A DNA stretch of 64,000 nucleotides, taken from the NCBI RefSeq assembly GCF_008728835.1, contig NZ_CP042582.1, forward strand, positions 4,881,001 through 4,945,000. The letters run 5' to 3'. This stretch comes from Hypericibacter adhaerens (GTDB lineage: Bacteria > Pseudomonadota > Alphaproteobacteria > Dongiales > Dongiaceae). Under the pieces are notes generated by a model that was not told the DNA's origin, made no database searches, and saw nothing but the letters and a program-made list of their open reading frames with translations. Both the position numbers and the translations under genes were made by a program. Shown here in pieces: positions 20,327 through 50,829 of the stretch. How positions within the stretch are numbered: position 1 is the first letter of the stretch; each line of letters begins with the position of its first letter.

Positions 20327-20639
20327 GACGCGAGGATGCTCCGCTGAAGGAACTGAGGACAGGAAGCCTTGGTAGCGCAATCCCGCGCGCGGAGCCAGGG
20401 AGGCAGGGTTTCAGCAAAGCGGCATCGCGTCTGCGGCTCCCCTCCCCCTACCCCCTCCCGCAAGGGGAGGGGGCGAGAAGTTTCTTGTTCCAGATCTTTT
20501 GCAGGAGGGGGCGAGATATTCGTTGTTCCAGCTCCCTCCCCTTGCGGGAGGGGGTAGGGGGGAGGGGTCGCTTCAGAAGAGAGCGAGATCCCGATCATCG
20601 ATCTCGCCCAAAGCTTTGAAGCAGAGCGCCGCGATCGTG
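20327..20639. other. Intergenic region with inverted hairpin repeats (family C)
   Basis: There is no gene in these 313 bases. Two GC-rich hairpins of the same family lie in opposite orientation at 20439-20475 (stem CCCCTCCC-gcaa-GGGGAGGG) and 20532-20567. Between them a direct repeat of about 28 bases (GGAGGGGGCGAGA then a TTCTTGTTCCAG-like part) occurs twice. The structure resembles a decayed repeat-flanked element. Confidence 0.7.
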
Positions 20640-29241: not shown

Positions 29242-29370
29242 CACCTCTCCCCACCCTGTGGGGAGAGGTGCCTCGTCATGACGTCTTCTCGTCATCCCCG
29301 CGAAAGCGGGGATCCATCCTGATCCAGCGATGCAAGCTTGACGTTGGATCCCCGCTTTCGCGGGGATGAC
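29242..29370. repeat. Hairpin of family C and inverted REP pair (family A)
   Basis: At 29242-29270 there is a hairpin CACCTCTCCCC / GGGGAGAGGTG. It is followed by two face-to-face family A copies at 29291-29316 and 29345-29370 (GTCATCCCCGCGAAAGCGGG and its reverse). They sit between convergent genes and could also act as transcription barriers. Confidence 0.8.
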
Positions 29371-37765: not shown

Positions 37766-37898
37766 CCCCTCCCCCTCGAGGGGGAGGGTTAGGGTGGGGG
37801 CTGCGCGATGCCTGCTCATTCGAGAAAGCATGGCCGGTGTCCAGGATCGAACATCGAGTCATCCCCCACCCTGACCCTCCCCCGCAAGGGGGGAGGGA
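37766..37898. repeat. Inverted hairpin repeats (family C)
   Basis: Two copies in opposite orientation: 37766-37801 (CCCCTCCCCCTCGAGGGGG core) and 37861-37898 (CCCACCCTGACCCTCCCCC start). They lie downstream of the tandem secreted-protein genes and are related to those flanking the DUF559 gene at 50.4-50.8 kb. Confidence 0.75.
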
Positions 37899-50367: not shown

Positions 50368-50374
50368 TTCCCTA

Positions 50375-50425
50375 TTCCTTCCTCTCCACCCGCGCAGCGG
50401 GGGAGAGGGCAGGGTGAGGGGGGCC
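50375..50425. repeat. Left inverted hairpin repeat of the DUF559 unit (family C)
   Basis: About 51 bases (beginning TTCCTTCCTCTCCACCCGCG), nearly identical to the reverse complement of 50772-50823. It has an internal hairpin around the CCCGC/GCGGG core. Its other strand encodes the tail P-L-T-L-P-S-P-P of the DUF559 reading frame. Confidence 0.85.
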
Positions 50426-50757
50426 TCGGCCAACGCGAGCTCGACGATCCGGAGGACGCCCTCCAGATTCGTCGTCACGTCGTTATTCCAGAACCGAAGA
50501 ACGCGATAGCCCTGCGCCTCCAGATAGCGGGTGCGGGCTGCATCGGCGTCGATGGCGTCCCCATGCTGGCTGCCGTCCAGTTCGACGATCAATCGAGCCG
50601 AGATGCAGAGGAAATCGGCGACGTAGGGTCCAACGGGGACCTGCCGGCAGAACTTGGCGCCGGCGAGCTGGCGATTCTTGACGGCGTGCCAGAAGCGCCA
50701 TTCGAAGGGTGTCAGGTTGCGGCGAAGCTGCTTGGCAAAGTCTTCGCTCGTCGGCAT
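50422..50757 (-). CDS. DUF559 (Vsr-like) endonuclease-domain protein, no proper stop
   Basis: A 112-residue DUF559 domain of the PD-(D/E)xK nuclease superfamily, related to the very-short-patch repair nuclease. Motifs are L-T-P-F-E-W-R-F-W near residue 15, [15 protein letters not shown] near 37, and the catalytic I-V-E-L-D-G-S-Q-H near 57-65, then [10 protein letters not shown]. After residue 112 the frame enters the left repeat and continues without a stop to 49405, antisense to hbd, giving a 450-residue frame. The true end is therefore unclear. The gene sits tightly between two inverted repeats, starting 15 bases from the right one. Confidence 0.78.
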
Positions 50758-50771
50758 CGGCGCGGCTGCAA

Positions 50772-50823
50772 GGCCCCCTCACCCTACCCTCTCCCCCCGC
50801 TCCGCGGGTGGAGAGGAAGGATT
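50772..50823. repeat. Right inverted hairpin repeat of the DUF559 unit (family C)
   Basis: About 52 bases (beginning GGCCCCCTCACCCTACCCTC), the inverted counterpart of 50375-50425, with few mismatches. Together they bracket a single gene, like the ends of a small element. Confidence 0.85.
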
Positions 50824-50829
50824 AATCCT

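Follow-up and report, generated by a model that had tools for sequence, protein, structure and literature searches.

A DUF559 nuclease gene between inverted triplex-type repeats as a probable minimal mobile element

A small nuclease gene standing alone between two inverted hairpin repeats raises the question of whether gene and repeats form one mobile unit. Such an arrangement occupies positions ~50373–50824 of the window, the 64,000-nucleotide stretch of the Hypericibacter adhaerens genome analysed here, where a DUF559 (PF04480) gene lies between inverted copies of a repeat composed of a head and a hairpin. The sequence-only reading had described a nuclease gene between inverted hairpin repeats at 50375–50823, and our analysis bears this out: the gene, on the minus strand, matches the PF04480 profile with E=7.5e-38 (129 bits against a cut-off of 20.6), and the arms are inverted and 94% complementary in their outer segments (50373–50403 and 50794–50824) and 96% in their inner segments (50399–50422 and 50774–50797). 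The unit comprises the following features.

50419..50757, minus strand: gene for a DUF559 Vsr-like PD-(D/E)xK nuclease, domain part, with its ATG at 50757; assigned from the profile match and the invariant residues
50373..50423, minus strand: left arm, 3' of the gene; outer hairpin CCTCTCCACCCGC-GCA-GCGGGGGAGAGG, then head GGGTGAGGGGGG facing the gene
50773..50824, plus strand: right arm, 5' of the gene; head CCCCCTCACCCTA facing the gene, then outer hairpin CCTCTCCCCCCGC-TCC-GCGGGTGGAGAGG
50382-50420 (minus strand) and 50781-50815 (plus strand): the unit's two finder elements, each a head with a pyrimidine/purine (Y/R) hairpin

The hairpin, CCTCTCCmCCCGC...GCGGG..GGAGAGG, thus lies outside, and the C-rich head CCCCTCACCCT lies on the gene side. 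The DUF559 frame meets no stop within the unit and extends over 450 codons, from 50757 to 49405, entering the antisense of a neighbouring dehydrogenase gene. The frame reads through the entire 3' repeat in 73 of 93 DUF559 units, so that the tail of the protein would be repeat-encoded; since about two-thirds are expected from three frames with one TAA, and this is not clearly exceeded, the read-through was dropped as evidence.

The element finder, a scripted search for a C-rich head with a Y/R hairpin, returned six elements in the window, forming three inverted pairs, and zero in five shuffles. All six follow the order Y arm, loop, R arm, short loop and reverse-Hoogsteen arm on one strand. Outside the unit, the window contains the following repeats.

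37767..37897, unstranded: gene-less inverted pair, hairpins out and heads in, with a 62-bp spacer; L002/L007/L009-type arms, one with TTA and one with TCA
37767-37800 (minus strand) and 37863-37897 (plus strand): finder elements of this pair, in the same layout as the DUF559 unit
20440..20565, unstranded: gene-less inverted pair with heads outward, opposite to the layout of the DUF559 unit; L005-type arms
20440-20473 (plus strand) and 20532-20565 (minus strand): finder elements of this pair, head with Y/R hairpin
29242-29270: headless hairpin adjoining an unrelated inverted repeat
29291-29369, inverted pair: the unrelated inverted repeat GTCATCCCCGCGAAAGCGGGGATCCA, next to the headless hairpin

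Gene-less relatives of the unit had been proposed at all three of these places. The inverted pairs at 20.44 kb and 37.77 kb are indeed related copies, but the 29.24-kb hairpin lacks a head and stands beside an unrelated repeat. Moreover, the two pairs belong to the repeat family of the window unit but to other subfamilies (L005 and L002/L007, respectively), and a gene-less pair with the unit's own idiosyncratic arms is located 121 kb away (G000:4810338-4810465, G000 being the window's genome). This genome of 5.87 Mb carries five DUF559 genes, all five with such arms, one side being degenerate at L002 and the gene frameshifted at L005. The arm type varies between these units and matches inside each unit.

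Knowledge of BoxC/PIT triplex repeats in E. coli dates back to the 1990s. On its G strand, the present repeat reads CCCTCTCCCC - loop - GGGGAGAGGG - TTA - GGGTGAGGGG and, at the sequence level, matches BoxC, also termed PIT element or TM_ECO, which is a class II intrastrand triplex motif (PMC4666352). The two share the pyrimidine arm, loop, purine arm, second loop and reverse-Hoogsteen arm GGGTGAGGGG, the division into type A (second loop TTA) and type B (another 3-nt loop), the inverted pairing of A with B, and a copy at the 3' end of E. coli ycjD. Holder et al. (2015, PMC4666352) found the motif in over 260 genomes; E. coli K-12 has five inverted BoxC pairs, type A with type B every time, and an actual triplex has been demonstrated in vitro only for the sequence from E. 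coli (PMC4666352). The sequence-only reading knew of no established mobile system of this kind, which has to be divided: the repeat itself is known, but PMC4666352, the most extensive study of it located, associates no mobility gene with it, whereas in the present unit it constitutes both ends and encloses a nuclease gene. An Rfam search gave no match. In a literature search whose coverage excluded preprints and most subscription journals, no paper joined BoxC with a nuclease, and none of the DUF559 papers listed was, by title, about repeats.

The fit to a purine arm is closer for the third arm of its own element than for third arms from other loci (7.49 vs 6.36, p=3e-28, a value inflated by shared ancestry), and a long second loop tends to be itself a hairpin (stem of 4.97 bp vs 3.22 bp when shuffled, p=1.5e-6). 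Both the covariation between third arm and stem and the second-loop hairpin fit the view that the three-arm fold would be what is recognised. The extra second-loop hairpin was seen in many arms (L208, L243, L253, L257, L258, L228 and L215), with a unit-specific, self-pairing sequence. Arms of this kind might instead serve a stand-alone repair nuclease by terminating its transcript or stabilising its mRNA, and be retained for gene function rather than for movement, as the terminator-like look of the C-rich hairpins and the frequent position of units between convergent genes would allow. However, earlier assays of PIT elements, as related in PMC4666352, showed no function as promoter or terminator. 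Together with the many gene-less copies, the conserved third arm outside the hairpin and the location of units at different sites, this makes a regulatory role highly improbable.

The association of DUF559 genes with such arms was observed in two samples. Matched inverted arms, defined as left and right flanks that are inverted copies with a score of at least 30, flank 74 of 100 DUF559 genes in a first sample that combined named genomes from many phyla with members of the window's family; the proportion is 1% for 600 random places within these loci, and 23% when flanks of different loci are paired. In an independent class-wide draw, the figures are 46/61 (75%) against 1.3% at random places (Fisher p=1e-45), with 14% for mispaired flanks of different loci. 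DUF559 genes lacking the repeats elsewhere had been named as the outcome that would speak against the proposal; we found arms of any sort, one-sided ones included, at 152 of 161 genes (94%). The head of the nearest arm points toward the gene in 167 of 190 cases and away from it in 23; in Deinococcus units the heads face outward, and the layout is therefore not universal. A DUF559 gene on a P. aeruginosa plasmid (L193) has no arms.

Repeat and gene also co-occur at the genome level. Among 144 genomes, the canonical repeat is present in 23 of the 38 with a full-length DUF559 gene and in 8 of the 106 without (Fisher p=1.6e-10, with kinship ignored), the reversed control pattern giving ~2 hits in total. 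One genome of the class sample (G049) has 34 canonical repeats and no DUF559 match, and may represent a lineage from which the gene, but not the repeats, has been lost; another genome of this genus, G156, carries repeat and gene alike. Related arrangements occur in viral contigs, cyanobacterial plasmids, Deinococcus plasmids, Neisseria and E. coli, where the DUF559 gene ycjD has a BoxC at its 3' end. In Neisseria gonorrhoeae (L196, ~1880-2500), two triplex-type repeats that end in GAGAGAGGGCAACAAGC and stand in direct, not inverted, orientation flank a DUF559 gene. On the 3' side of ycjD in E. coli K-12 (L110:5205-5420), the coding sequence for the DUF559 C-terminus is partially repeated ahead of a second BoxC, perhaps as the remains of a second unit. 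The BoxC at the ycjD end is intact in strain KE47 and damaged in K-12 (L110, L198).

The gene-less pairs carry the ends of a DUF559 unit. The window's genome and its congener G001 share a homogeneous gene-less family of 27 pairs with a spacer of mostly 70–76 bp, giving an element of ~136 bp in dozens of copies. Nearly all pairs (with one exception) combine one TTA arm with one CTG/TTG arm, which is the polarity reported for E. coli BoxC pairs. Compared with unit L007, the family consensus agrees at 52/57 positions of the left end, including ~20 bp inside the head, and is identical at the right end (43/43). These shared ends support the relation of autonomous to non-autonomous elements that had been suggested from the window, and such gene-less copies are best explained as high-copy, MITE-like non-autonomous elements, as judged from their sequences. 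Furthermore, gene and ends are cognate: within genomes, DUF559 protein similarity tracks arm similarity (rho 0.61, 57 pairs, permutation p=0.002), and the two arms of a unit match each other with a score of 49.5, as compared with 23 for arms of other units of the same genome (p=4e-10).

Short GIY-YIG genes of the window's family provide a control for the DUF559 result, since no BoxC-type arms bracket any of them. A different palindrome, CGTCATnCCCGGGCTTGaCCCGGGnATCCA and relatives, stands in inverted copies on both sides of 17 of 33 GIY-YIG genes (UvrC-length ones included) against 2 of 173 random places (cited loci L266, L275, L280, L285, L289, L290 and L293-L298), in what looks like a second nuclease-plus-repeat system. 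The pair GTCATCCCCGCGAAAGCGGGGATCCA at 29291-29369 of the window belongs to this palindrome class. These comparisons bear on the idea that the repeats are spread by something else and that DUF559 is only a cargo or scavenging nuclease, which either persists in intergenic islands rich in repeats or was picked up on a single occasion and carried along. Repeats in genomes without DUF559, such as G049, and the possible repair role of a DUF559 protein (PMC12907096) are consistent with such hitchhiking. Against it, gene and arms co-vary inside one genome, GIY-YIG genes of the same genomes use a different repeat, and DUF559 occupies 59 of the 64 hairpin-out pairs with a gene-sized interior, with no other recurrent gene (most of these loci having been picked around DUF559). 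We regard passive hitchhiking as quite unlikely.

Presence and absence at orthologous sites were observed in several lineages. In Deinococcus NW-56, a unit lies between two genes of the hpa operon; D. proteolyticus has the exact empty site, where the flanking hpa genes overlap and the flanks therefore join exactly, together with a 79% identical unit at another junction of the same operon. A Sinorhizobium unit is cleanly absent in Shinella, in which the flanking genes are ~ten bases apart. Three units of ~80% identity (L002, L007 and L009) occupy three different sites, and the homology between L002 and L007 stops near the outer hairpin end. In the sister species G001, the window site holds a different unit with other arms, the L003 site holds a gene-less pair and the 37.77-kb site holds another gene-less subfamily; several gene-less pairs of the window's genome are absent there. 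A unit kept at one place in all relatives, with no empty site, had been named as the opposite outcome; the loci of Deinococcus, Shinella and G001 show empty sites or different occupants. On these comparisons of orthologous sites and of related units at different loci, the units move. This movement appears slow, because Azospirillum units are fixed at one site in seven records and E. coli units are likewise fixed at one site. The ycjD locus of E. coli offers no clean empty site, as strains without ycjD have the eef efflux operon between fabI and sapF (PMC12817139), and the excess over chance of occupied sites shared between the two congeners is not significant (p=0.2). Target duplications, which would be expected of a DDE-type insertion sequence and which the sequence-only reading had put forward for comparison along with empty sites, were not seen on inspection of the flanks of 28 gene-less copies and of the Deinococcus empty site.

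The enzyme itself constrains how such units could spread. Residues E19, D48, E59, D61, H65 and W90 are invariant in 56 aligned DUF559 sequences, and the first five are catalytic residues that are intact in the window protein. With the predicted structure of this protein (pLDDT 88), Foldseek gave Neisseria NGO0050 (3hrl) as the best match and the homing endonuclease I-Bth0305I (PDB 3r3p; E=3e-4, TM 0.66/0.76) as the nearest characterised structure, and a profile comparison with the EDxHD homing endonuclease gave E=1.3e-3. The structural match to the mismatch endonuclease Vsr (1cw0) is weaker (E=0.04); the two belong to one superfamily, but Vsr has an FxH half-site whereas DUF559 has an invariant ExD...H (ExDG..H), and no flanking repeats are described for Vsr, as opposed to the repeat-flanked DUF559 units. 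A profile search of the element matched only DUF559 and the related MTES_1575 family and found no HuH/Y1 transposase domain; DUF559 alone contains no strand-joining domain. Caulobacter lacking a methyltransferase shows a DNA damage response that depends on the DUF559 protein VsrA, for which a role in mismatch repair has been proposed (PMC12907096), indicating that the family acts on DNA in vivo and that some members may be domesticated. A defence system was also considered and is unsupported, the best PADLOC result being a weak DpdF match (E=0.011).

The analogy with REP elements and their RAYT transposases, drawn from the window alone, holds for the architecture but not for the parts. As in REP/REPIN–RAYT systems, a gene lies between inverted structured repeats, many gene-less inverted pairs have near-fixed spacing, and the repeat type is cognate to the gene. 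RAYT, however, is a HuH Y1 transposase whereas the present enzyme is a PD-(D/E)xK nuclease, the conserved head is CCCCTCACCC with no GTAG foot of the REP palindrome, and the repeat has a third (triplex) arm. By comparison with I-Bth0305I, which has the nearest characterised fold and probably the same catalytic layout on the predicted model, the DUF559 protein is a free-standing 110-aa domain bounded by repeats, outside any intron or intein, and, in contrast to the EDxHD homing endonuclease, it has no specific or fixed target gene, its units lying in varied intergenic sites. The unit is neither a REP/RAYT member nor a typical homing endonuclease, and works like both.

Two routes of spread can be weighed on this basis. 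PD-(D/E)xK nucleases cleave DNA by hydrolysis and lack the covalent intermediate through which HuH enzymes can rejoin ends. If transposition were RAYT-like, the nuclease would, possibly together with a host factor, excise the single-stranded element at its folded ends during replication and insert it elsewhere, as thought for TnpA_REP. The inverted structured ends with polar type A and type B pairs, the near-fixed gene-less spacer of 70–76 bp and the cognate ends of each paralogue are shared with that model, which nevertheless seems unlikely given hydrolysis without a rejoining intermediate, the missing HuH domain and the recurrence of different elements at the same sites. A homing-like cut-and-repair is favoured, as the chemistry of PD-(D/E)xK enzymes is confined to hydrolysis, the closest characterised fold belongs to a homing endonuclease, target duplications were not seen and the same place is repeatedly occupied by different elements. 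In such a route, the nuclease would recognise the folded end (hairpin and third arm) while the DNA is single-stranded and would cut at or beside it, or at the target intergenic site; host repair would then copy the element into the break, with joining by the host and no strand transfer by the enzyme, and gene-less copies would be served in trans.

Taken together, the association, the identity of the ends, the cognate pairing of gene and ends, and the presence or absence at orthologous sites are best explained by a minimal mobile genetic element consisting of one DUF559 gene between two inverted, putatively triplex-forming (BoxC/PIT-type) ends and spreading by homing-like cut-and-repair, a reading to which, as a whole, we assign a probability of about 0.7. 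For its parts, we consider it very likely that the element is mobile and that its nuclease acts on the repeats, and place cut-and-repair as the route of spread at roughly even odds. A broader proposal is more tentative, and we put it at somewhat under even: a new mobile-element class in which a stand-alone PD-(D/E)xK nuclease recognises triplex ends and, through cut-and-repair, propagates both itself and gene-less copies in their hundreds. BoxC of E. coli and the TM repeats found in Neisseria and cyanobacteria would then be its non-autonomous remnants, and a parallel GIY-YIG class would use another palindrome.

The results tie a nuclease family to triplex repeats from Proteobacteria to Deinococcus and Cyanobacteria, E. 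coli ycjD included, so that the origin of the repeat becomes directly testable. The association gives DUF559 a likely function and points to it as the enzyme that spreads a repeat of hitherto unexplained mobility. The principle of REP and RAYT would thereby extend to an unrelated enzyme and, if this enzyme proves to mobilise triplex ends, the units would represent a new class of element.
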